From NCBI GenBank assembly GCA_004322005.1, contig SCRF01000085.1:1-37332 (forward strand): a stretch of 37,332 nucleotides of DNA, read 5' to 3'. The notes under the pieces were generated by a model that did no database searches, was not told where the DNA came from, and saw only the letters and a program-made list of their open reading frames with translations. Below, one piece after another: positions 18,768 through 30,234 of this stretch. Source of the stretch: Rhodanobacter sp. Its GTDB lineage: Bacteria; Pseudomonadota; Gammaproteobacteria; Xanthomonadales; Rhodanobacteraceae. Position 1 is the first letter of the stretch. The number at the start of each line of letters is the position of its first letter. A program made the translations under genes and the position numbers.

Positions 18768-19867
18768 GTACGTGCACCATGAGTACGTTCGATCACAACG
18801 CCACCAGGTATTCGATGCGGCGGTTCTGGCGGTGCATGCCGTGGCTGGCGGCCTGCCTGTTCTGCGGCCTGGCCTCGGCCGCCATGCTTCCGCTGCGGAT
18901 AGTCCATCGCATCGTGGTCCAGGGCACGGCCCCGGTTCGGGCGATCGTGCCCGGCCCCGGCGGCACGCAGGTCTATGTGGCGAGTGGACGCGAGATCCAG
19001 GTCTACGATGTGGCTACCGGGAACCTGGCCGGCACGCTGCCGCTGCCTGCCCCGGTGCTGGACATGACCGCCGACGAACCTGCCGGCGTGGGCTATGCAG
19101 CGCTCGCGGCGCCGGCGCGGCTGGTGGTGTTCGGGCTGCGTCCGTTGCGCATCACCTCGACCATCAGGCTGACGGACGGCGTGCCCTCGGCACTGCTGCT
19201 GGATGCCGCCAGGCATGCGCTGTATGTGGAAAGTGCGGCCGGCGCCTCGCTGGCGAAATTCGATACAACCAGCGGCAAGCGCGTGGCCGCGTTACGGCTG
19301 CCGGGGGCGCTGCGGCAGATGGCGACGGACGGTCGCGGTACGTTGTACGTGGCCAACATGAGCCACGCCGCGATCGACGCGGTGGATACCGCACGCATGA
19401 CCCGCACCGGAGCGATACCGCTGGACGGTTGCACGGATCCCACCGGGCTGGCGATGGATCCGGTCGGGCGCCGGCTGTTCGTCGCCTGTCGCGATGGCGG
19501 TCGCGCGGTCATCGACACCGACATGGGTTTCGCTTTTCAGCAGCTGCCCGGTAACGTGCAGGGTGCGGTACGCACGGTCTTCGGCTTTCATCCCTTCGGC
19601 GCGAGCAGTTGGAAAGGCGGTGCATTCAGTGCCGGCGAGGCGCCACAGCTCACCGCGATCCGGATGAACGCCTTTATAAGTTACAGCGCGGCCGGCACCT
19701 ATCCGCTGGACGGAAGCTGCGAGTCGCTGGCGCTGGACACCGGTGGCCGCGGCTTGTGGCTGGCGGTGGCGCCCACTTCCGCTGCAGGCAGTCAGGCGGG
19801 TGCGCCGGTCGAGTTGCGGTTGCTGAGTGCAACGGCGTTGAGTGAAGCAGCGGGAGCCTCGAAATGA
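18764..19867 (+). CDS. Exported YncE-like beta-propeller protein (third in window)
   Basis: The product is 367 aa, starting with ATGA overlap on the preceding stop; an ATG at 18779 is an alternative. A signal segment (WLAACLFCGLASAA) ends near residue 40. Blade-like repeats include TQVYVASGREIQVYDVATGN, HALYVESAAGASLAKFD, GTLYVANMSHAAIDAVD and RRLFVACRDGGRAVID. It is more divergent than the propeller at 9447, with a longer loop around the FHPFGASSWKGGAFSAGE segment. It is flanked on both sides by four-base overlaps and so is produced together with the receptor and binding proteins. The ligand is unknown. Confidence 0.83.
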   Translation: MSTCTMSTFDHNATRYSMRRFWRCMPWLAACLFCGLASAAMLPLRIVHRIVVQGTAPVRAIVPGPGGTQVYVASGREIQVYDVATGNLAGTLPLPAPVLDMTADEPAGVGYAALAAPARLVVFGLRPLRITSTIRLTDGVPSALLLDAARHALYVESAAGASLAKFDTTSGKRVAALRLPGALRQMATDGRGTLYVANMSHAAIDAVDTARMTRTGAIPLDGCTDPTGLAMDPVGRRLFVACRDGGRAVIDTDMGFAFQQLPGNVQGAVRTVFGFHPFGASSWKGGAFSAGEAPQLTAIRMNAFISYSAAGTYPLDGSCESLALDTGGRGLWLAVAPTSAAGSQAGAPVELRLLSATALSEAAGASK

Positions 19868-21384
19868 ATCGGCGATTCCATCTCCCCGGCGTCCTCGGCC
19901 GCTGGCTGCTGGCCTTCGGGCTGAGCCTTGCCACCGCGCACGCGGCGATGCTGCCGTGGTCGGCGCTGCGGGGCAAGACGGTGCTGTTCGTGACGGGAAA
20001 CACCCCGGCCGGCGCGCCCAACGACGATGCCCTGGTGCGCCAGCATCTGGAGAAGCTCGGGTTCAAGGTCAGGACCGTCGACGAGTCCGTATCGGCGACC
20101 GCCGCCCGGGGCATCAGCCTCATCGTCATCTCGTCCACGGCCAACGCACACGCGCTGGGGACCAAGTTCGCCGGTACCCCGGTCCCATTGTTTACCTGGA
20201 ACACCTTCGACTATCCGAATCTCGGCATGACAGGGCCGCAGCTGCATCGCGATTTCGGGATCGTCGATCCGACCCAGCATTACGCGGACAGTTTTTCGGT
20301 ACTTTACGGTTACGGCGCGAATACGACCTCGGCCATCAGCAAGGCCGTCGGGCTCAAACCGCAGCTGTTCGGTACGCTGTATCTGGAGCCGGGCACCGTC
20401 GGCTGGGCGCACCCAGGGCCCGGCGGCACCGTCATCGCCTATTTTGACGGGATGGCCGACGACAAGGCGGCGGTCTTTACCTACGAACGCGATGCCAGCC
20501 TGGTGGACGGTCGCGCCGCTCCCGCGCGACGGGTCGGCTTTTATCTGGCGGACGGCAACTTCCATCTGCTCACCGCCGTGCATGGGCCGGCAGCGAAAGA
20601 CCCGCAGTTGCACAGCTGGGCGATCGGGCTGAAGCTGTTCGACGAGGCCATCCGCTGGGCGGCGAGTCAGCCGGCCCCGGTCGCGCCTTACGATCCCGCC
20701 GCACTGAATTCGCGGATCGCACGGGCGGCCCATGGCAGGAAGGTGCTGTTCGTCGAGCGCGTCAACGCCGGCGAGGGACGCGCGGCGGACGAGCACATCG
20801 TCGCGCATCTGCGCAGCCTGGGGTTCGATGTCGCCATCGCCGACCAGACGGATCCGCCGACCCGCGCTGCCGGCATGGATCTGGTGATCATTTCCGGGTC
20901 GTGCTCGAAGTACAAACTGGCCAACAAGTACATCGACGTCAAGGTACCGTTGATTTCTCTGGAAGGCTTGATGTCGGACAGCCTGCATTTTTCCGGCCGC
21001 AATCGTTACGTCGACTACGGCGAGCATGGCGAGGAAAAAGAGAGCGATGATCCGCCCGATAACTACCTGGATATCGTGGGCGCCTGGAATCCCATGGCGG
21101 CGGGTCTGCACCCCGGGCTGGTGAAGTTCACCCATCATCCGGGCATCTTGAAGTGGGCTGCGCCGCTGCCCGACGCGATCGTGATTGCCACACTGCCCAA
21201 TTCGCCCAACGAGCGCGCGATCTTCGGCTACCCCAAAGATGCGGTCATGGCCGACGGCTTCATCGCACCGGCCCGCCGGGTGTTGCTGCCCTTTGACAAC
21301 CCGTCCTTTGACGACCTCACCGCGCAAGGCCGTGCCCTCTTCGACGCCGTCGTGCTGTGGTCGATCGGTGGAGATGGTTCCTGA
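19864..21384 (+). CDS. Exported protein with two tandem flavodoxin-like alpha/beta domains, function unknown
   Basis: The product is 506 aa with a signal peptide of about 28 residues (LLAFGLSLATAHAA). Two related halves follow. The first (about 37-262) begins GKTVLFVTGNTPAGAPNDDALVRQ and contains LIVISSTANAHALGTKF. The second (about 289-503) begins GRKVLFVERVNAGEGRAADEHIV and contains LVIISGSCSKYKLANKY. Each half ends with an AP-ARRVGFYLADGNF or AP-ARRVLLPFDNPSF element. The pattern of an initial beta strand, a helix, and a VDE/DQT strand suggests a flavodoxin- or ThuA-like Rossmann fold, seen in some secreted bacterial proteins. I recognise no catalytic triad. ATGA overlap with the previous gene ties it to the receptor block. 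Confidence 0.8.
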   Translation: MNRRFHLPGVLGRWLLAFGLSLATAHAAMLPWSALRGKTVLFVTGNTPAGAPNDDALVRQHLEKLGFKVRTVDESVSATAARGISLIVISSTANAHALGTKFAGTPVPLFTWNTFDYPNLGMTGPQLHRDFGIVDPTQHYADSFSVLYGYGANTTSAISKAVGLKPQLFGTLYLEPGTVGWAHPGPGGTVIAYFDGMADDKAAVFTYERDASLVDGRAAPARRVGFYLADGNFHLLTAVHGPAAKDPQLHSWAIGLKLFDEAIRWAASQPAPVAPYDPAALNSRIARAAHGRKVLFVERVNAGEGRAADEHIVAHLRSLGFDVAIADQTDPPTRAAGMDLVIISGSCSKYKLANKYIDVKVPLISLEGLMSDSLHFSGRNRYVDYGEHGEEKESDDPPDNYLDIVGAWNPMAAGLHPGLVKFTHHPGILKWAAPLPDAIVIATLPNSPNERAIFGYPKDAVMADGFIAPARRVLLPFDNPSFDDLTAQGRALFDAVVLWSIGGDGS

Positions 21385-21385
21385 A

Positions 21386-23491
21386 ATGAGGGCCCGCGTT
21401 TGCCGCACTGGTGTCGTCGATGCGGTTGGCAAGGGGCTTGGTGCGATCTTCCGTTTCAGGCGCAAGGCGATGGCATCGCCAGCACGAGCGATCGTGGCCG
21501 CGCTTCTGCTCGGCCTCTGTCCGGGCGATGCAGTGCATGCTTCGGTAGAGCAGGCAGCGTCCGCGACCGTCGGCGCAGACGGCTTGCGTTGTCTGGGCGC
21601 CAGCACGATGCAGCCGCTGGTCGCGGCATGGGCGAATGCGTTTCAGGCAAGGCGGCTTCGGGCAGGGCAGCCCCGGGCGTCGATCCACGTAGCCGATACC
21701 ACGCGCTACTCGGCCGCTGGCGTCGCTGCCGTCCGCGCCGGTCGCGCGAACTGCGTCACCTTCGCGCGCGAACCGTTCCCGGCGGAATCGGCCGCATTCA
21801 AGAGCATGCCGGAGCGTGCGCCGATCGTCGTTCCGGTGGCGGGCGGGAGCTATGCAACGCCGCATGGAACTTTCGCGATCGCGATTTACGTGAACCGCGC
21901 CAACCCGCTGCATGGCCTGACCGTGGCGCAGCTGTCGGCGGTGTTCTCCGGCGAACCGGTGGCGGGCGGGCATCAACCACTGCGGACGTGGGGGCAGCTT
22001 GGGCTGCGCGGGCGCTGGGCGAGGCGGCCCATCCATGTCTACGGCATGACGCCGCAACGCGCATCCGGCAACCCGCCGGGTATCGTCAATTTTCTGGATC
22101 GGCGCGTCCTGGGCGCACGTCCGTGGCGCAAGGACCTGCGCGTACAAGTCGATGCGCACGGGCTGAGCGCACTGGCCGCCGTCGTGCGGCAGGTGAGCCT
22201 GGATCCGGATGGCATCGGCTACAGCGGCTTCGGCTACGCCACGAAATCCGTGAACGCCATTGCGCTGTCGGTCGGGCACGGCGCGCCATTCGTGGCAGGC
22301 ACGCCGACCAGCGTGGCCTCGGGCCGCTATGCGCTTGCCAGAAAGATCTATCTCGGCCTGCCACGAACCGGCACGGGCGGACTGACGCCGCTGGCCTGCA
22401 ACTTCCTGTCCTTCATCCTGGGAGCCGACGGACAGCGCCTGATCGGGCAGGACCGGATGCACTTCGATCCGCTCACCGCCCGGCAGCACAGCGCAGTCCG
22501 CCGCCTTCTGGCGCAGGATCACCTTTGCGATCCGCCGATGCGCACGAAGAGCACCGGGAGGTCGCCTCCGCATCAAGCCTATGTCACCAGCAGCGGCGCG
22601 ATCCGCATCGTCGGCTACAACGACATGCGCTGGATGCTCGAAGCACTGGATCGGCGGTTCGGCGCGATGCATCCCGGCATCCACTTTGATCTCGTACTCA
22701 AGGGAACCCGGACGGCGCCAGCGGCACTCGCCGCAGGCAGCAGCCTGTTCGCGCCGATGGGTGCCGAATTCACCGATCAGGCGCTGCGCCAGTATCGCCG
22801 GCGGGTGGGCGCGGACCCGCTGCGCTTTCGCGTGGCGCACGCCGCGCTCGACCCGCGCGCGCGCTCCTCGCCGCTGGCGATCTATGTGAATCCGGCCAAT
22901 CCGCTGCGCACGATCAGCATGCGCCAGCTGCGCGCCATCTTCACTTCGCCGGGGCGGCTGGCCGAGGGCGCGCAGCTGGGCCTGGGCGGCGCCTGGGCGC
23001 ACTGGCGCATCCGGCCGTGCGGGCTCGCCGCGGGTACCGCGCTGGGCGTGTTCATGCGCCGGCACCACTTCGGTGGCGCGGGCTACGTGGACGGCTACCG
23101 CGGATTTCGCGAATCGGCGGCGGTCATGCGCCATGTAGCGGCCGATCCCGCGGCGCTGTGTTTCGCCGACCTCAATCAGGCCAACCCGGGGGTGCGTGTG
23201 GTGGGTATCCGGCTGCCCGCCGGTGCAGGAGTGTCGCGCGGATCGCGGCAGGACATCGTCTCCGGGCGCTACCCGCTGGATCGCCATCTTTACGTCTATC
23301 TGCGCGCGCCAGCAGCGGGCGATCCGCTGGCCTGCGCCTACCTGGCCCTGATGCTCTCCGCGCAGGGCCAGCGCATCATCGCGGCGGCCGCGCCGGGCTA
23401 CCTGCCGCTGAGTGACGCGGAGCGCGCCTCCGAACGCCGGCGCCTCGCCGGCTGCAGCCAGCCAGTGATGAAGTCGCCTTCATCGTTGTAG
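21386..23491 (+). CDS. Tandem PstS-like binding protein (two domains in one chain)
   Basis: The product is 701 aa, starting one base after the preceding stop; ATGs at 21374 and 21470 are alternatives, the last placing the signal peptide (ARAIVAALLLGLCPGDAVHA) closest to the N-terminus. Two PstS-like halves are visible. Domain 1 (about 65-375) has CLGASTMQPLVAAWANAF, PVAGGSYATPHG, NPLHGLTVAQLSAVFSG and TWGQLGLRGRWARRPIHVYG. Domain 2 (about 404-680) has RIVGYNDMRWMLEALDRRF, NPANPLRTISMRQLRAIFT and LGLGGAWAHWRIRPCGL. Domain 2 has lost several of the ligand-loop residues seen in domain 1 and in the protein at 17562, so it may be structural. It is the last gene of the coupled block. Confidence 0.83.
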   Translation: MRARVCRTGVVDAVGKGLGAIFRFRRKAMASPARAIVAALLLGLCPGDAVHASVEQAASATVGADGLRCLGASTMQPLVAAWANAFQARRLRAGQPRASIHVADTTRYSAAGVAAVRAGRANCVTFAREPFPAESAAFKSMPERAPIVVPVAGGSYATPHGTFAIAIYVNRANPLHGLTVAQLSAVFSGEPVAGGHQPLRTWGQLGLRGRWARRPIHVYGMTPQRASGNPPGIVNFLDRRVLGARPWRKDLRVQVDAHGLSALAAVVRQVSLDPDGIGYSGFGYATKSVNAIALSVGHGAPFVAGTPTSVASGRYALARKIYLGLPRTGTGGLTPLACNFLSFILGADGQRLIGQDRMHFDPLTARQHSAVRRLLAQDHLCDPPMRTKSTGRSPPHQAYVTSSGAIRIVGYNDMRWMLEALDRRFGAMHPGIHFDLVLKGTRTAPAALAAGSSLFAPMGAEFTDQALRQYRRRVGADPLRFRVAHAALDPRARSSPLAIYVNPANPLRTISMRQLRAIFTSPGRLAEGAQLGLGGAWAHWRIRPCGLAAGTALGVFMRRHHFGGAGYVDGYRGFRESAAVMRHVAADPAALCFADLNQANPGVRVVGIRLPAGAGVSRGSRQDIVSGRYPLDRHLYVYLRAPAAGDPLACAYLALMLSAQGQRIIAAAAPGYLPLSDAERASERRRLAGCSQPVMKSPSSL

Positions 23492-23515
23492 ATGCACCGG
23501 ACATTGCGCTATGGT
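23486..23515 (+). promoter_or_regulatory. Candidate promoter of the sulfur operon
   Basis: TTGTAG (23486-23491) and TATGGT (23510-23515) are separated by 18 bases. The spacer and its downstream edge contain a perfect dyad ATGCACC-N14-GGTGCAT (23492-23498 and 23513-23519) embracing the -10 element. A transcript would start close to 23522, at the edge of the operator-like palindrome. Confidence 0.5.
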
Positions 23516-23523
23516 GCATTTCG

Positions 23524-23542
23524 CACACTTCAGTGAAATGTG
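23524..23542. promoter_or_regulatory. Operator-like palindrome CACA-N-TTCA-N-TGAA-N-TGTG
   Basis: This is a 19-base dyad whose eight outer and eight inner positions are all symmetric around base 23533. TTCA/TGAA half-sites are common in ArsR/SmtB-family operators. It lies immediately downstream of the candidate -10 and nine bases before the regulator's ATG, an ideal place for autorepression. Confidence 0.65.
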
Positions 23543-23551
23543 GAATCAACG

Positions 23552-24436
23552 ATGCGCAAAGCTGCCGCCATGCATGCCCGCGCTGTCGAGACGGCGCGGC
23601 TGCTGCGCGCGCTGGGCAACGCGCGGCGGCTGCTGATCCTGTGCCGCCTGTTCACCCGTGGCGAAGCCAGCGCCGGCCAGCTGGCCGAGGAGCTGGGTCT
23701 GGGGCTGTCGGCGCTGTCGCAGCACCTGGGCTTGATGCGCACCGAGGGCCTGCTCGGCCAGCGCCGGCACGGCCGCCAGCTGTTCTACCGCATCAGCGAA
23801 TCCGCGTCGGGGCAACTGCCGCGGCTGCTCGCCAGCATCTGCAGCGAGGTTCCGCTGCCCACCCCCGAAACAGGAGATGACCCGATGAAACCGATCACCA
23901 TGTTGGCCGCCGTGCTGGGCCTCAGCGTTGCCGCCAGCGCGGGCGTACGCGCCGCGGACGGCTTCTGGCAGACCCCGACGATCCAGGGTGCCGGCAAGAT
24001 GCATGCACTGCCGAAGGCGGCCTACCAGCCTGACGCCAAGGCCACCTACAAGGTGGTGTTCGGGCTCACCGGCGCGGCCGCCAAGCCCGACCAGGTCAGC
24101 CCGGGGCTGGAACGGGTGGCGCGTGCGGTGAACCTGTATGTGCACGCCGGCGTGCCGCTGAAGCACCTGCACTTCGTGGCGATCGCCTACGGTGCGGCCA
24201 CCGCGATCGCGCTGGACGATGCCCACTACCAGAAGCAGTACGGCGTGCCCAACCCCAACCTGCCGGTGATCGAGCAGTTGCGCAAGGCCGGCGTCGACGT
24301 CGCCGTGTGCGGGCAGGCGGTGGCCGAGCACGAGTACCAGTACGACTGGATCGACAAGCACGTGACGCTGGCGCTGTCGGCGCTTACCACCATCTCCGAG
24401 CTGCAGCAGAAGGGCTATGCCCTGGTGCCGCTCTGA
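23552..24436 (+). CDS. SqrR/BigR-type ArsR-family regulator, continuous in frame with an exported DsrE domain
   Basis: The open frame encodes 294 aa. Residues 1-100 are an ArsR winged helix (LLRALGNARRLLILCRLF, AGQLAEELGLGLSALSQHLGLMRTEGLL, RRHGRQLFYRI). Cys31 and Cys97 are 66 residues apart, exactly the spacing of the redox pair in SqrR (C41/C107) and BigR (C42/C108), which repress sulfide genes until persulfide links the two thiols. No stop follows: the frame runs on through Met112 into a signal peptide and a DsrE domain. A GTG at 23540 could extend the N-terminus but falls in the operator. The product may be a membrane-anchored fusion, or the regulator may have lost its stop; a +1 frame would stop at 23878-23880. 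Regulator identity is strong; the state of the fusion is uncertain. Confidence 0.82.
   Translation: MRKAAAMHARAVETARLLRALGNARRLLILCRLFTRGEASAGQLAEELGLGLSALSQHLGLMRTEGLLGQRRHGRQLFYRISESASGQLPRLLASICSEVPLPTPETGDDPMKPITMLAAVLGLSVAASAGVRAADGFWQTPTIQGAGKMHALPKAAYQPDAKATYKVVFGLTGAAAKPDQVSPGLERVARAVNLYVHAGVPLKHLHFVAIAYGAATAIALDDAHYQKQYGVPNPNLPVIEQLRKAGVDVAVCGQAVAEHEYQYDWIDKHVTLALSALTTISELQQKGYALVPL
23885..24436 (+). CDS. Exported DsrE-family protein (internal start in the same frame)
   Basis: A separate start at ATG 23885 is likely because GGAG lies about ten bases upstream and a signal peptide begins there (MKPITMLAAVLGLSVAASAG, cleaved near residue 24). The 183-aa product has the DsrE-like alpha/beta fold with YKVVFGLTG, VARAVNLYVHAGVPL and VDVAVCGQAVAEHEY; Cys142 sits where DsrE-family proteins carry a persulfide-bearing cysteine. 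It is probably a periplasmic sulfur carrier or trap acting with the cytochromes downstream. It overlaps the regulator entry entirely in frame, so this entry is either an alternative translation product or the C-terminal domain of a fusion. Confidence 0.78.
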   Translation: MKPITMLAAVLGLSVAASAGVRAADGFWQTPTIQGAGKMHALPKAAYQPDAKATYKVVFGLTGAAAKPDQVSPGLERVARAVNLYVHAGVPLKHLHFVAIAYGAATAIALDDAHYQKQYGVPNPNLPVIEQLRKAGVDVAVCGQAVAEHEYQYDWIDKHVTLALSALTTISELQQKGYALVPL

Positions 24437-24502
24437 TTCCACATGCCAATGCGCATTCAGCAAGACGGGATTCTTTGAGCGAACTGCCAAAGCGTTCGGG
24501 CT

Positions 24503-24530
24503 CGTCATTCCCGCTTTCGCGGGAATGACG
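24503..24530. repeat. CGTCATTCCCGC hairpin repeat
   Basis: Perfect 12-base arms (CGTCATTCCCGC and complement) surround TTTC. This is a very common dispersed palindrome of proteobacterial genomes. It lies in the 152-base gap between the DsrE and solute-binding genes, which otherwise holds only the ribosome-binding site of the next gene. It may dampen or stabilise the polycistronic mRNA. Confidence 0.85.
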
Positions 24531-24588
24531 ACCTGAAAATTCTGGATGTTTGATCGCAATTTCGTATCCGGCCTGGGTGGAGATCACT

Positions 24589-25533
24589 ATGCACAAGACA
24601 CGATTTCGCCGGCGCGGACTGGCGCTGGCGCTGATGACGGCGGTGATCGGCAGCGCCTCGGCGGCTGACCGGCCCGACTACCTGCCGCCGTGGAATCCTC
24701 CGACATCCGGTGGCGTGCAGTTCAGCGCACCGCCGGTGGACGCCATCGCCGATCTGCACGGCGACATCGTCGATCCGCAGCTGACGGTGTTTTTCGCCGG
24801 CAACCAGTTCATGGTGGTGCACGACCTGCTGGCGGCGTTCCGGCACGCCTATCCGCAATACCAGCGCATCTTTGTCGAAACGCTGCCGCCGGGCATCCTG
24901 GCCAAGCAGATCGAGACCGGCGCGCTGGTGATGGGCAACCTGCGCATCGCGCTGAAGCCGGACGTCTTTACCGCCGGAAAGGCCTCGATCGCCGCGCACC
25001 AGAAGCGGCACGGCTGGTTTGCCGACACCTACGACTACGCGCGCAACCCGCTCGCGATCCTGGTCGCGCAGGGCAATCCGAAAGGCATCCACAGCCTGGC
25101 CGATCTCGGCCGCCCGGATGTGCGCGTGAGCATGCCGAACCCGGCGTGGGAGGGCATCGCACGGCAGATCGAGGCCAGCTACCGCAAGGCTGGCGGCCAG
25201 GCGCTGGATACCACGATCATGCACACCAAGCTGGCCGACGGCAGCACGTTTCTCACCCGCATCCATCACCGGCAGACCCCACTGCGTGTGCTGCAGGGGG
25301 AGTCCGACGCCGGCGTGGTGTGGTCGACCGAGGCGTACTTCCAGCAGCAGATCCTGCATCATCCGGTGCAGACGGTGGCGATCCCGGCCGCGCAGAACAG
25401 CATGGCCACCTACACCGCCGCGCGCATGAAGGATGCGCCGCACGCGCAGGCCGCGAAGGATTTCCTCGCCTTCATGCAGACCCCGGCGGCGCAGGCGATC
25501 TACCGCAAGTACGACTTCCTGCCACCGCACTGA
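24589..25533 (+). CDS. Orphan periplasmic solute-binding protein, ModA-like type II fold
   Basis: The product is 314 aa with a signal peptide (LALALMTAVIGSASAA, cleaved near residue 26). GGAG lies seven bases upstream of the ATG at 24589, so an upstream in-frame ATG at 24550 is rejected. The mature protein has the type II binding-protein pattern: LTVFFAGNQFMVVHDLLAAF, GALVMGNLRIAL, ARNPLAILVAQGNPKGIHSLADLGRP, VRVSMPNPAWEGIARQIE, GESDAGVVWSTEAYF, and a C-terminal AAKDFLAFMQTPAAQAIYRKYDF. This resembles molybdate/sulfate-type binding proteins. No permease or ATPase follows; cytochromes do. A sulfur oxyanion such as thiosulfate is a reasonable guess for the ligand, by context only. Confidence 0.85.
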   Translation: MHKTRFRRRGLALALMTAVIGSASAADRPDYLPPWNPPTSGGVQFSAPPVDAIADLHGDIVDPQLTVFFAGNQFMVVHDLLAAFRHAYPQYQRIFVETLPPGILAKQIETGALVMGNLRIALKPDVFTAGKASIAAHQKRHGWFADTYDYARNPLAILVAQGNPKGIHSLADLGRPDVRVSMPNPAWEGIARQIEASYRKAGGQALDTTIMHTKLADGSTFLTRIHHRQTPLRVLQGESDAGVVWSTEAYFQQQILHHPVQTVAIPAAQNSMATYTAARMKDAPHAQAAKDFLAFMQTPAAQAIYRKYDFLPPH

Positions 25534-25543
25534 GGCGCACGGC

Positions 25544-26221
25544 ATGATCTTCGCTCATCGCGTGATGCACGTACCGTGGTCTCTGCTGCTGCTCCTGTTG
25601 CTGGTGTCGGCACCGAGCGCCTGGGCGATCGACGCCGCTGCCATCGCGCAGCAGGGCAATGGCCGCGGCGCGCCGGCGTGCCAGACCTGCCACGGCGCGG
25701 ATGGCGCGGGCCAGGCGGCGGCGGGATTTCCGCGGCTGGCGGGCCTGAATGCGGCCTACCTGCACAAGCAACTGGACGATCTGGCCAGCGGCGCCCGCGG
25801 CAGCGCGGTGATGCAGCCCATTGCCACCGCGCTGAGCGAAGCGGAGCGCACGGCGATGGCCGGCTATTACAGCGCGCTGCCGATCCCCGCCGCGCTGGCT
25901 CGACCCGGCACGCCGATGCCGGCGACCGACAGCGTGGGCGCGCAGCTGGCCCTGCGCGGCCGGTGGTCGCAGCAGGTGCCGGCCTGCGTGCAGTGCCACG
26001 GCCCCGACGGCGTCGGCGTGGGCGGCCACTTTCCGCCGCTGGCGGGGCAGTCGGCCACCTATATCGCGGCGCAGCTGAAGGCATGGCAGCAGGGCACGCG
26101 CCACAACGATCCGCTGCAGCTGATGCAGCACATCAGCCACGCGCTGAGCGAACAGGACATCGCCGCGGTCGCCGGCTGGTTTGCGGCGCAGCCGCTGTCG
26201 GCAGCGGGAGGAACGCCATGA
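25544..26221 (+). CDS. tsdB: Dihaem cytochrome c4-type, probable TsdA partner
   Basis: The product is 225 aa. A signal peptide (PWSLLLLLLLVSAPSAWA) leads to two similar cytochrome c domains with haem motifs C46-QT-C49-H50 and C148-VQ-C151-H152. Likely axial methionines are Met90 and Met194 in the GSAVMQPIA and LQLMQHIS segments. FPRLAGLNAAYLHKQL and FPPLAGQSATYIAAQL mark the c4 repeat. The ATG at 25565 is an alternative start. The stop overlaps the TsdA start (ATGA). In known tsdBA pairs this dihaem protein takes electrons from thiosulfate dehydrogenase and passes them on to a terminal oxidase. The name is assigned by fold and position. Confidence 0.87.
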   Translation: MIFAHRVMHVPWSLLLLLLLVSAPSAWAIDAAAIAQQGNGRGAPACQTCHGADGAGQAAAGFPRLAGLNAAYLHKQLDDLASGARGSAVMQPIATALSEAERTAMAGYYSALPIPAALARPGTPMPATDSVGAQLALRGRWSQQVPACVQCHGPDGVGVGGHFPPLAGQSATYIAAQLKAWQQGTRHNDPLQLMQHISHALSEQDIAAVAGWFAAQPLSAAGGTP

Positions 26222-27186
26222 AGATGCATCGGCTCGGCGCGCTGGCGCTGCTGTGGCTGGCGGCCTGCTCTTCCGGCACACCCCCTGCGCCGGCGCCGGC
26301 CGGTACGGCCGGAAAAGCCGCGGTGGTCAGCGCGCCGGTGGCTGTCGCGGCAAATCCGCATGCCACCGCGGGCGGCGGCGCGACGCGGTTCACGCCGCCG
26401 CCGGAATCGGCCATGCCCGCCGGCCCGTTCGGCGACGCGGTACGTCAGGGCCGCGACATTTTCGTGCACACGCGCGAGTACGCGAAGGCGTATGTCGGCA
26501 ATGGTCTGCGCTGCAGCAACTGCCACCTCGACGCCGGCCGCCTCGCGCACTCGGCGCCGCTGTGGGGCGCGTATGTGGCCTACCCGCAGTACCGCCGCAA
26601 GAACGGTCACGTGAACAGCCTCGGCGAACGCATCCAGGGCTGCTTCCGATTCAGCATGAACGGCAAGGCGCCGCCGCTGGACAGTCCCGAAATGGTGGCA
26701 CTGGAAAGCTACGCCTACTGGATGGCGACCGGTGCGCCGGTCGGTGCCCGGCTGGCCGGCGCGGGCTATCCGAAGCAGGGTTTCAAGCCGCCGCAGCCGC
26801 CGGACTATGCGCGTGGCGAGGCGGTGTTCGTGCGCGACTGCGCGCTGTGCCACGGTGCCGACGGCCAGGGTCAGCGGGTCGCCGGCCGCGACGTGTTCCC
26901 GCCGCTGTGGGGGCCGGATTCGTTCAACTGGGGCGCCGGCATGGCGCAGCTGGACAACGCCGCCGCCTTCATCAAGGCCAACATGCCGCTGAGCCGCGGC
27001 GGCAGCCTGAGCGATCAGGACGCATGGGACGCGGCGATGTACATCGACGGCCACGAGCGTCCGCAGGATCCGCGCTACAAGGGAAATCTCGAACAAACAC
27101 GCAAGCAGTACCACGACTCGCCGCTGTCGCTGTACGGCACCATGGTGGACGGCCACCTGCTCGGCGCGCGGCCCAGCCACCGGTGA
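26218..27186 (+). CDS. tsdA: Thiosulfate dehydrogenase (TsdA-type), lipoprotein
   Basis: The product is 322 aa. The signal ends in a lipobox (LWLAAC, Cys17), so the protein should be lipid-anchored. The first haem motif is C99-SN-C102-H103, followed by LDAGR. The conserved GERIQGCF motif supplies Cys142, matching the thiolate that ligates the active-site haem in TsdA (His/Cys ligation). The second haem motif is C208-AL-C211-H212, with probable axial Met256 (KANMPLSRG). TsdA oxidises two thiosulfates to tetrathionate, reversibly in some species. It is coupled to the c4 gene by ATGA and to the next gene by GTGA. The Cys ligand separates it from SoxX/SoxD cytochromes. Confidence 0.9.
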   Translation: MKMHRLGALALLWLAACSSGTPPAPAPAGTAGKAAVVSAPVAVAANPHATAGGGATRFTPPPESAMPAGPFGDAVRQGRDIFVHTREYAKAYVGNGLRCSNCHLDAGRLAHSAPLWGAYVAYPQYRRKNGHVNSLGERIQGCFRFSMNGKAPPLDSPEMVALESYAYWMATGAPVGARLAGAGYPKQGFKPPQPPDYARGEAVFVRDCALCHGADGQGQRVAGRDVFPPLWGPDSFNWGAGMAQLDNAAAFIKANMPLSRGGSLSDQDAWDAAMYIDGHERPQDPRYKGNLEQTRKQYHDSPLSLYGTMVDGHLLGARPSHR

Positions 27187-28043
27187 CGCCGCCGCTGCCG
27201 AACGACGAACGCGAAGCCAACCGCAACCACCCCACTCCGGATACCCACGCATTGAACAGCAGCAGTTTGAACCTCAGCACCGCGCGCAGCCGCCGCGGAA
27301 CACGATGGATCGTCTCCCTGCTGCTGGCGCTGGCCGCCTGCGCGCAGGCGCAGGACGTGCCGGCGCCGATCCGCGCACTCGCCAGCCAGGGCATCACGAT
27401 CAAGGGGCCGCTGGCGGCGCCGCCGGGTTTCAAGGGCTATGTCGGCGACTACCGCGGGCAGCCCATGCCTGTTTACCTGCTTTCCGACGGCCAGCATATG
27501 GTGATCGGCACCTTGCTCGATGCGAACGGCAATGACCTCACCCGCGCGCCGCTGCAGGCCGCGGTCACACCGGCGCTGAATGCGGCGACCTGGGCGGAGC
27601 TGGCCAAGGCGAGCTGGATTGCCGAAGGCGCCACCCACCCGAAACGCATCGTGTATGTGTTCACCGATACCGAGTGCCCGTATTGCCACAAGCTGTGGGC
27701 GGCCACCCAGCCGCTGCTGGCCGGCGGCGACGTGCAGGTGCGCCACGTGATGGTGGCGGTGATTGCGCCGCAGAGCCGCAACCGCGCGGCGGCGATACTC
27801 GATGCGGCCCAGCCGCAGGCGGCCCTGCAGCAGCACGAGAGCACCTTTGGACACAGCACAGTGGCGCCGGAGCCGAGCGTGCCCGCGGCCACCGCCAGCC
27901 GCATCGACGCCAACAACGCGCTGATGGAAAAGCTGGGCATCCAGGGCACGCCGGCGACCCTCTACAAGGACGCGACCGGCCGGGTCCGCGTGCTGCAGGG
28001 CATGCTGCCCGAGGACCGGCTGAAGGCGATCTTCGGTGACTGA
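27183..28043 (+). CDS. DsbG/DsbC-like periplasmic thiol:disulfide protein
   Basis: The product is 286 aa if translation starts at the GTG overlapping the TsdA stop (GTGA). No in-frame ATG precedes the signal peptide (RWIVSLLLALAACAQA, about 41-56), and a TTG near 27252 is an alternative start, so the first 40 residues are uncertain. The mature part shows the DsbC/G N-terminal domain (IKGPLAAPPGFKGYVGDYRG) and a thioredoxin fold with active site C165-PY-C168 and a cis-Pro loop GIQGTPATL. CPYC is the DsbG-type motif. In a sulfur operon it may keep thiols reduced or act on persulfidated or tetrathionate-modified proteins; that role is inferred. Confidence 0.86.
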   Translation: MTPPLPNDEREANRNHPTPDTHALNSSSLNLSTARSRRGTRWIVSLLLALAACAQAQDVPAPIRALASQGITIKGPLAAPPGFKGYVGDYRGQPMPVYLLSDGQHMVIGTLLDANGNDLTRAPLQAAVTPALNAATWAELAKASWIAEGATHPKRIVYVFTDTECPYCHKLWAATQPLLAGGDVQVRHVMVAVIAPQSRNRAAAILDAAQPQAALQQHESTFGHSTVAPEPSVPAATASRIDANNALMEKLGIQGTPATLYKDATGRVRVLQGMLPEDRLKAIFGD

Positions 28044-28932
28044 GCGCGCCGCCATGTTGCCCGCCATGCATCGTCCCGCCGTGCAGGCGTTCTTTCACGA
28101 GCCCAGCCACACGTTCAGCTACGTGGTGTGGGATCCGGCCACGCGACGTGCGGCGGTGCTCGACAGCGTGCTCGACTACGACGCGGCGGCGGGACGCACC
28201 GGCCACACGGCGGCGGACGCGCTGATCGCGTTCGCGCGGGCGCAGGGGCTCGGGGTGGACTGGGTGATCGACACCCACGTGCACGCCGACCATCTCTCGG
28301 CGGCGCCGTATGTGCAGGCACAGCTGGGCGGCCGGCTGGGCATCGGCGAACACATCCGCACGGTGCAGGACACCTTCGGCAAGCTGTTCCATGCGGGCAG
28401 CGCCTTCCGCCGTGACGGCAGCCAGTTCGATCACCTGTTCAAGGACGGCGAGCGCTACCGGGTGGGCAGCATCGAGGCCATGGCCATCCACACGCCCGGC
28501 CACACGCCCGCGTGCATGACCCATGTGATCGGCGACGCCGCGTTCGTGGGCGACACGCTGTTCATGCCCGACTATGGCACCGCGCGCTGCGACTTTCCCG
28601 GTGGCGACGCGCGCACGCTGTACCGCTCGATCCAGCGAATCTTCGCGCTGCCGCCGGCCACGCGGGTTTTCCTGTGTCATGACTACAAGGCCGAAGGGCG
28701 CGACACGTTTGTCGGCGAGAGCACGGTCGGCGCGCAGCGCGCGGACAACATCCACGTGCATGACGGCATCGGCGAGGACGCGTTCGTGCGCATGCGCCGC
28801 GCGCGCGATGCCACGCTGTCGATGCCGACCCTGATGCTGCCGGCGGTGCAGGTGAACATGCGCGCCGGGCAGCTGCCGCCGGCGGAGGACAACGGCGTGC
28901 GTTACCTGAAGATTCCACTCGATGTCATGTGA
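28036..28932 (+). CDS. Persulfide dioxygenase-like metallo-beta-lactamase-fold protein
   Basis: The product is 298 aa counted from GTG 28036, which has AAGG upstream and overlaps the preceding stop; ATGs at 28054 and 28066 are alternatives. The fold is marked by FSYVVWDP and SVLDYD, then TH81-V-H83-A-D85-H86, TPGH156-TPAC, GD173-TLFMPDYGTARCDFPGGDA, and FLCH215-DYKAEGRD. H81, H156 and D173 occupy the positions of the mononuclear iron ligands of ETHE1-type persulfide dioxygenases, which turn glutathione persulfide into sulfite. The MPDYGTARCDFPGGD segment is typical of the Blh/PDO group controlled by BigR-type regulators. Cytoplasmic, as no signal peptide is present. Confidence 0.92.
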   Translation: MTERAAMLPAMHRPAVQAFFHEPSHTFSYVVWDPATRRAAVLDSVLDYDAAAGRTGHTAADALIAFARAQGLGVDWVIDTHVHADHLSAAPYVQAQLGGRLGIGEHIRTVQDTFGKLFHAGSAFRRDGSQFDHLFKDGERYRVGSIEAMAIHTPGHTPACMTHVIGDAAFVGDTLFMPDYGTARCDFPGGDARTLYRSIQRIFALPPATRVFLCHDYKAEGRDTFVGESTVGAQRADNIHVHDGIGEDAFVRMRRARDATLSMPTLMLPAVQVNMRAGQLPPAEDNGVRYLKIPLDVM

Positions 28933-29027: not shown

Positions 29028-29441
29028 ATGCAGCCGAAACGACTCACCGGGATGCTCAGCGTGGCGGGCCAGATCGAGCCGGCCGACCTCGCTGCGCTGG
29101 CCGCGCAGGGCTTTCGCAGCGTGATCAACAATCGACCCGATGGCGAGGCGGCGGAGCAGCCGGCCAGCGCCACCCTGGCGGCCGCGGCGCAGCGTGCCGG
29201 CCTGCACTACCGGCACATTCCGGTCGTGTCCGGCCAGCTGCAGCCGGCGCAGGTGCAGGCTTTCGCCGAGGCACTGGCCGCGCTGCCCGGCCCGGTGCTG
29301 GCGTTCTGCCGCAGCGGCACGCGTTCGGCCACGCTGTGGGCGCTGCAGTCGGACGCCGGTGCGCCGGCGATCCTGCAGGCCGCGCTGGCAGCCGGATACG
29401 ACCTGTCGGCGCTGCGGCCGCAGCTGCGGCCGCAGCCATGA
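29028..29441 (+). CDS. DUF442/TIGR01244-family sulfurtransferase
   Basis: The product is 137 aa. GGAG lies nine bases before the ATG. The chain opens RLTGMLSVAGQIEPADLAAL, continues GFRSVINNRPDGE and ends with a phosphatase/rhodanese-like loop FC94-RSGTR99-S. Members of this family (the N-terminal part of Blh proteins) are often encoded beside or fused to persulfide dioxygenases and are thought to transfer sulfane sulfur. It lies between the dioxygenase and the exporter, 95 bases after the former, and 13 bases before the TauE gene. Cytoplasmic. Phosphatase activity is less likely in this setting. Confidence 0.88.
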   Translation: MQPKRLTGMLSVAGQIEPADLAALAAQGFRSVINNRPDGEAAEQPASATLAAAAQRAGLHYRHIPVVSGQLQPAQVQAFAEALAALPGPVLAFCRSGTRSATLWALQSDAGAPAILQAALAAGYDLSALRPQLRPQP

Positions 29442-29454
29442 TCGGCGCCTGCGC

Positions 29455-30234
29455 ATGATCGGCCTGCCGCACATGCAGGATCTGCTGGCCGTGCTGTGCG
29501 GCTCGGCGGTCGGCTTTTCGCTGGCGCTGACTGGCGGCGGCGGCTCGATTCTGGCGATGCCGCTGGTGCTGTACGTGGCCGGCGTGCACGACCCGCACGT
29601 GGCGATCGGCACCAGCGCGCTGGCGGTGGCGGCCAACGCGTTCGCCAACCTGATTCCGCACGCGCGCGCCGGCCACGTGCGCTGGAAGCCCGCCTTCGTG
29701 TTTGCCGCCACCGGCGTGGTCGGCGCCACCCTCGGCTCGACCCTGGGCAAGGCGGTGAACGGGCAGCATCTGGTGGTGCTGTTCGCGCTGCTGATGCTGG
29801 TGGTGGCTGCGCTGATGCTGCGCGGTCGCAAGAGCAGCGGGCCGGATCGCTACCCGCTGCCGCACATGGTTCCGCGGCTCGGCGTCACCGGCTTCGGTGC
29901 GGGCGCGCTGTCGGGCTTCTTCGGCATCGGCGGCGGCTTCCTGGTGGTGCCCGGGCTGATGTTCGCCAGCGGCATGGAGATCATCCACGCGATCGGCACC
30001 TCGCTGTTCTCGGTCGGCGCGTTCGGCGTCACCACCGCAGTGAACTACGCCGCCTCGGGGCTGGTGGACTGGCGCGTGGCGGCGGAGTTCATCGGCGGCG
30101 GCATCCTCGGCGGCTGGCTCGGTGCGATGGGTGCCAAGCGGCTGGCGAAGACGCGCGGCGCGCTCAACCTGGTCTTCGCCGGGATGATCATCCTGGTGGC
30201 GATCTACATGTTGTTCAAGAGTCTGCACGGCTGA
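29455..30234 (+). CDS. TauE/SafE-family sulfite (sulfonate) exporter
   Basis: The product is 259 aa with about eight hydrophobic helices. Duplicated family motifs are visible: SLALTGGGGSILAMPLVLYVAGV near residue 22 and GALSGFFGIGGGFLVVPGLMF near residue 150. The ATG at 29455 is chosen; 29473 is an alternative. The family exports sulfite, sulfoacetate and related anions. As the last gene of the sulfur operon it would remove the sulfite made by the persulfide dioxygenase. GC-rich DNA without an obvious strong terminator follows. Confidence 0.9.
   Translation: MIGLPHMQDLLAVLCGSAVGFSLALTGGGGSILAMPLVLYVAGVHDPHVAIGTSALAVAANAFANLIPHARAGHVRWKPAFVFAATGVVGATLGSTLGKAVNGQHLVVLFALLMLVVAALMLRGRKSSGPDRYPLPHMVPRLGVTGFGAGALSGFFGIGGGFLVVPGLMFASGMEIIHAIGTSLFSVGAFGVTTAVNYAASGLVDWRVAAEFIGGGILGGWLGAMGAKRLAKTRGALNLVFAGMIILVAIYMLFKSLHG

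Follow-up and report, generated by a model that had tools for sequence, protein, structure and literature searches.

We find that an ArsR-type winged helix-turn-helix (HTH) domain and a DsrE domain are joined within a single gene, and that this fusion is real and conserved in ten distinct genes. In the stretch of 37,332 nucleotides of Rhodanobacter sp. DNA analysed here (the window), an ORF reading shows the frame to be open from 23537 to the stop codon at 24434–24436 of the forward strand, with no stop codon between the two domains, as a preliminary description of this DNA had maintained. The predicted protein has 294 residues when read from the ATG at 23552 (23552..24436) and 298 when read from an alternative GTG at 23540. 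By comparison with known proteins, the gene appears to be of the sulfane-sulfur-sensing ArsR kind with an added DsrE, and we see an even chance that it gives rise to two products, an ArsR-DsrE regulator and an exported DsrE translated from an internal start.

The HTH part (residues 14–97; 23591..23842, forward strand, as for all features of the frame given below) is delimited by profile and PDB matches and by a cysteine alignment, and contains Cys31 (23642–23644) and Cys97 (23840–23842). The Pfam profile HTH_5 matches residues 25–67 with 29.5 bits (cutoff 22.0) and is the best Pfam HTH match, so that the domain is assigned to the ArsR type and not to the OmpR type. The NCBIfam profile HTH_metalloreg was likewise passed (66.3, cutoff 55), and the PDB matches include BigR (3pqj, 2.6e-16) and YgaV (3cuo). 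The preliminary description had named the protein a persulfide sensor of the SqrR/BigR kind; that name is based on the cysteine pair, and the NCBIfam BigR equivalog scores 62.5 bits, below its cutoff of 155. The spacing of 66 residues between Cys31 and Cys97 is invariant in all ten fused proteins and, according to two reports, is that of SoxR and sHdrR Cys50/Cys116 (PMC10451225, PMC12423496). The DsrE domain (residues 185–292 by the Pfam stretch; 24104..24427) scores 39.4 bits (cutoff 22.7) and holds the only other cysteine of the frame, Cys253 (24308–24310), which is also invariant in the ten fused proteins and present in two sphingomonad DsrE proteins. A search of the PDB with the DsrE profile returned no chain at E 0.01, so Cys253 is unmatched to any known active-site cysteine. 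The structure model of the fused protein is poor (mean pLDDT 51.3), with a low-confidence helix at residues 113–130. The source genome holds one fused gene; the three other matches listed for it span the HTH part only.

When orthologous loci were compared for a stop between the domains, as the preliminary description had proposed, none of the ten fused genes was found to have one. The unbroken frame recurs in a metagenome-assembled genome (MAG) whose protein is 94% identical (L046) and in eight further genomes, and a codon-by-codon comparison of seven fused genes showed that linker lengths vary by whole codons only. Because relatives share the frame and the linker changes by whole codons, a base-calling error or a local mutation is ruled out by these nine additional fusions, all distinct and free of stops. 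Release of the HTH by a programmed frameshift is judged unlikely, the linker being unconserved in codon alignments except for the internal start signal.

Among the matches listed, all ten distinct stop-free fusions fall within one family. Six of the 197 family genomes, including the source genome itself, have a full-length stop-free match with 68–100% identity, and a seventh, G034, has one with 42%. By genus, and again among the matches listed, fusions occur in 4 of 45 genomes of the window's own genus (G000, G801, G786 and G794) and in 4/4, 1/6 and 1/5 genomes of the genera of G003, G031 and G034, respectively; the G801 ORF is the same as that in the MAG record JAJYSM010000002.1 (‘Proteobacteria bacterium isolate DX1.bin48’). 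Wider samples, of 299 genomes from the order, 369 from the class and 398 from the phylum, gave no fusion outside the family among the matches listed; these searches rest on the best matches and would miss a fusion with a very different DsrE. Across 104 loci, same-strand HTH-DsrE neighbours were in frame every time, representing eight distinct genomes. The only unfused ArsR-dsrE pairs encountered were those on plasmids of two sphingomonads, Sphingomonas aliaeris (L228) and Sphingobium yanoikuyae (L231), and on the S. aliaeris plasmid the stops between the separate genes were read directly. A different gene lies directly 5′ of dsrE in Sphingobium sp. SYK-6, S. xenophagum and Limimaricola variabilis. 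On plasmids of Acetobacter ascendens (L230) and Paraburkholderia fungorum (L229), DsrE proteins with 62–63% identity are followed by substrate-binding-protein genes; the former plasmid has an IS5 transposase just 5′ of dsrE and cytochrome c genes downstream, which hints at transfer. No paper on an ArsR-DsrE fusion was found in the literature searched, most subscription papers being outside its reach.

The internal ATG at 23885 with its Shine-Dalgarno GGAG (23873..23876), to which the preliminary description had drawn attention, is kept in eight of the ten fused genes. From this ATG we predict a short product, an exported DsrE of 183 residues (23885..24436), with a Sec-type signal peptide at residues 112–135 of the frame (23885..23956) that could be a signal anchor in the long form; this element is read from the sequence, its hydropathy and the low-confidence helix, and start and signal peptide occur together in eight of the ten genes. 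By eye, the ATG is followed by a lysine, an uncharged hydrophobic stretch and V-R-A-A-D, in the manner of a Sec-type signal peptide. Predicted pairing with the 16S tail at this start is −7.4 kcal/mol, first of the 35 start-like codons in the ORF; in the eight genes it ranges from −7.4 to −8.8 kcal/mol and, among 25–38 start-like codons, is the best in six genes, the second best in another and the third best in the last. The HTH starts have no Shine-Dalgarno, and pairing there reaches −3.3 at best. Moreover, the glycine codon inside the internal GGAG is GGA in 8/8 genes, and GGA makes up 28 of the 237 glycine codons across the ten ORFs. The internal start is very probably used, to judge from these sequence features. 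On a transfer scale, the best 19-mer of the hydrophobic segment scores 1.3–3.2 in the eight genes, compared with 2.6–4.1 for the five best TauE blocks, 3.2–7.0 for five signal peptides of the window and 6.0–9.0 for globular parts. Thus, in eight of ten genes the segment is as hydrophobic as the TauE helices of the window, and the long form could insert into the membrane, although the segment ends in a cleavage-like motif. Scans of the locus gave no sigma-70-type promoter match within 23350–24700 and no terminator match.

Two fused genes depart from this pattern. In G794, a TCG stands in place of the internal ATG, the remaining pairing there is −5.7, and between Cys97 and the DsrE domain the only in-frame ATG, GTG or TTG is a single TTG at the edge of that domain. 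Its segment has an aspartate in the core and no AxA site; the best 19-mer (7.5 on the transfer scale) lies barely beyond the signal peptides of the window, and on the Kyte-Doolittle scale the segment is not set apart from the others. In G034, the hydrophobic segment is absent (best 19-mer 11.8 on the transfer scale), and the five start-like codons between Cys97 and the DsrE domain have weak pairing (−1.0 to −3.8), none of them preceding a signal peptide. Loss of the signal peptide appears clear in G034 and probable in G794. Both genes retain the fusion and all three cysteines, and G034 also retains a dyad at its start, described below. In G794, dsbG comes after the fusion, and a free exported dsrE heads solute-binding-protein and cytochrome genes on a separate contig (C40). 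Contamination as the source of this second dsrE is judged unlikely (contamination estimate 4); the fusion contig (C125) and C40 are alike in composition (GC 0.645 and 0.661, dinucleotide distance 0.044). The products of two C125 genes near the fusion resemble PyrD and MurB by eye.

Selection appears to have maintained the HTH part, with pN/pS values of 0.13–0.50 in all 12 pairs compared. For the DsrE part, pN/pS is 0.02–0.39 in the ten pairs without G034, including 0.20–0.27 in the three G794 pairs; two G034 pairs give 0.71 and 0.83 with synonymous change near saturation, so the G034 values lend no support to constraint on that domain. The linker is poorly conserved across the fused genes. In a DsrE tree of 55 rows (four long rows of 59, namely G034, L197 and two paralogues, were dropped), the nine fused DsrE proteins are joined by those of the unfused genes in G809 and G793 (branch 100/97), and a single clade of the nine fused proteins is not rejected (p-AU 0.533). 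A search for an HTH relic upstream of dsrE in G809 (L187) and G793 (L189) found none; these two genomes may have lost the HTH, and their place in the fused DsrE clade indicates that the fusion is dispensable. Resolution in the HTH tree is poor and its branches are long; all ten fused HTHs fall to the same side of a branch supported at 64/84.

Just upstream of the start lies a putative operator that was missed in the preliminary description, the near-perfect 17-bp dyad ACACTTCAGTGAAATGT (23525..23541), with 7 of 8 dyad pairs. A dyad of consensus AYATTTCA-S-TGAAATRT is found at or just before the start at all ten fused loci, matching at 14–16 of 17 positions and 5–7 of 8 pairs, the consensus being derived from these ten loci themselves. 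The source genome contains two such sites, that at 23525 with a single mismatch and another with three. For comparison, we used 47 unfused loci, a non-random set consisting of six same-genus loci, the G794 locus on C40 and 40 loci hand-picked from the best matches listed. Within 500 nt upstream of dsrE, the best dyad score at these loci was 12 of 17. At 10 of the 47 unfused loci, and at 0/10 fused ones, the 3 kb upstream of dsrE contain a relative of one AraC-type query; the loci with such neighbours are L041, L042, L043, L045, L186, L188, L190, L191, L192 and L224. The dyad at fused loci and the AraC-type gene at unfused ones only suggest a change of regulator, with self-repression of what would be one cluster.

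Downstream of the fusion and on the same strand lie genes for a solute-binding protein (24589..25533; Pfam SBP_bac_11), which adjoins dsrE at most compared loci, a c-type cytochrome with two haem-domain stretches (25544..26221; Pfam Cytochrom_C) and a second c-type cytochrome with a SoxA-TsdA domain (26224..27186; PF21342, 41.3 bits, cutoff 27), which is thiosulfate dehydrogenase-like and scores 58.6 against the NCBIfam SoxA profile, below the cutoff of 110. These are followed by the thiol:disulfide interchange protein DsbG (27240..28043, start approximate; NCBIfam DsbG equivalog, 272.3 bits, cutoff 124) and, identified by profile matches, an MBL-fold protein corresponding to the dioxygenase half of Blh (28066..28932) and a TIGR01244 sulfur transferase corresponding to its other half (29028..29441), and then by a TauE/SafE permease (29455..30234; Pfam TauE, 169.1 bits). 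We note that between 28066 and 29441 the sulfur transferase and dioxygenase halves of Blh are thus separate genes, in an order reversed relative to the Blh profile. Directly upstream of the fusion, 21437–23491 encodes a 684-residue protein with two PstS-like stretches (PBP_like_2 twice), and 19864–21384 encodes a protein of 506 residues with a hydrophobic stretch at its N terminus and two halves that look alike by eye; searches of Pfam (E 0.001) and NCBIfam (E 1e-5) gave no match to it.

In a tblastn search with one query, a DsbG homologue was found downstream on the same strand at 10/10 fused loci and at 1/47 unfused loci (G809), or 1/43 when the four unfused loci with less than 5 kb downstream (L181, L188, L189 and L210) are set aside. 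The Fisher value of 3e-10 ignores kinship and is not taken as a sign of many events; in the independence test, one pair lay on starred branches. Given the grouping of G809 and G793 with the clade of nine, the dsbG and dyad associations rest on about one origin plus G034. A WCxxC thioredoxin-like membrane protein (TlpA-like by eye) is encoded in full length 5′ of dsbG at seven of the ten fused loci, is represented by a match of 38 residues in G794 and went undetected in G000 and L046; at the 47 unfused loci, two homologues are nearly full-length and three partial or weak. In G794, an apparent internally shortened remnant of this protein lies between the fusion and dsbG (L180:780–1380).

How might such a gene work? 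Weak pairing at the HTH start and strong pairing at the internal one predict that initiation at the former would be poor and yield little of the long ArsR-DsrE protein, whereas strong initiation at ATG 23885 would yield much DsrE with a Sec signal peptide. The long form would repress its own cluster by binding the dyad at the start codon of its gene, and the exported DsrE would act in the periplasm alongside the TsdA-like cytochrome. Within the long form, the lone Cys253 could accept sulfane sulfur or a thiosulfonate and load Cys31/Cys97 in cis, and repression would end once sulfur is available. The TsdA-like enzyme, if active, would supply tetrathionate at the locus; Metallosphaera DsrE3A takes thiosulfate from tetrathionate (PMC4175335). 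Such a relay in cis is suggested by the conservation of the cysteines. The full reading, a persulfide-sensing repressor with its own sulfurtransferase, in which Cys253 loads Cys31/Cys97 in cis, the internal start supplies a periplasmic copy and one mRNA sets both, is one we hold to be less likely than not. On this reading, the gene would be reduced to a pure sensor-transferase in G794, where a second gene provides the exported DsrE, and in G034, where this gene does not yield one.

The preliminary description had also envisaged a regulator with a tail plus a free DsrE. Taken to its limit, this would make the protein an ordinary ArsR repressor whose ancestral stop was lost by accident and whose tail is idle, only the short exported DsrE being of consequence. 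The strong internal start in eight of ten genes agrees with it, as do the little-conserved linker and the fact that G809 and G793 manage without an HTH. G794 and G034, however, fit it poorly: both lack a good internal start but retain an intact DsrE part, Cys253 included, and the low pN/pS of the G794 DsrE in three pairs argues against a tail without function. In addition, one base change could make a stop in the linker, and 0/10 genes have one. We therefore consider an idle tail rather unlikely.

Less of the ToxR-like topology put forward in the preliminary description is upheld. Here, the long form would be an inner-membrane protein with a cytoplasmic HTH and a periplasmic DsrE sensing sulfur, and signal peptidase might release or cut it. 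What stands is the uncharged hydrophobic segment in eight of ten genes, resembling TauE blocks in its 19-mers, together with helix 113–130 in the weak model; the G794 segment, which lacks an AxA site, might even serve as an anchor that is not cleaved. The cleavage-like motif at the end of the segment speaks against such an anchor, as does G034, which lacks the segment and keeps the HTH, DsrE, cysteines and dyad. G794, with its aspartate-bearing segment, weakens the topology less. That G794 and G034 keep the fusion without a working-looking start or signal peptide argues against an obligatory ToxR-like anchor and suggests a sulfur relay in cis. ArsR repressors of the SqrR/BigR kind are known to be soluble. 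On balance, a membrane-bound sensor is improbable. Finally, it is very improbable that the HTH part is not made at all and that transcription or translation begins at the internal start alone, leaving the upstream frame a relic, since the lack of a Shine-Dalgarno at the HTH start and of a sigma-70-type promoter match must be set against HTH pN/pS values below 0.51 in every pair and the retention of both HTH cysteines and the dyad at all ten loci.

The persulfide-sensing repressor with its own sulfurtransferase would bear on a wider problem, the route by which outside sulfur reaches ArsR-type sensors. Li et al. describe as not yet answerable whether SoxR and sHdrR are loaded via TusA or directly by transported sulfur (PMC11582611). 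The joint between sensor and DsrE offers a defined case of loading by a dedicated transferase, and the internal start, if used, would be a compact route to a regulator and an exported protein from a single frame. G794 and G034 constitute natural experiments that separate the regulator and export roles.

Among known systems, the fused gene resembles SqrR, BigR, SoxR, sHdrR and YgaV in its ArsR winged HTH, in two cysteines 66 residues apart, in a dyad next to the start codon and in the Blh-like, TauE and thiosulfate-oxidation genes nearby. It differs from them by the in-frame C-terminal DsrE and the internal start for a predicted exported product, and from BigR in falling under the NCBIfam equivalog cutoff. 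With DsrE/DsrF-like proteins and the exported DsrE of tsd-type clusters it shares a DsrE domain above the Pfam cutoff, a lone cysteine and a signal peptide, as well as neighbours like those at the 47 unfused loci; unlike DsrE/DsrF-like proteins, it is joined to a DNA-binding domain, and no PDB chain was matched at E 0.01. The sphingomonad plasmid pairs (L228 and L231) come close in arrangement, with an ArsR gene directly 5′ of an exported dsrE and with MBL and YeeE genes nearby, but in L228 a stop lies between the genes and the ArsR protein has a serine at the position of Cys31. ToxR-like membrane one-component regulators have the same order of HTH, hydrophobic segment and further domain. Their HTH is of the OmpR type, whereas that of the fused protein is of the ArsR type and is followed by a segment with the look of a cleavable signal peptide, which G034 lacks. 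Two-polypeptide phage endolysins are reportedly encoded by in-frame nested genes with an internal start, and the fused gene is like them in having two overlapping in-phase frames with a common stop and an internal start kept in eight of ten cases. Here, however, the short product would be exported and the long one would be a regulator.
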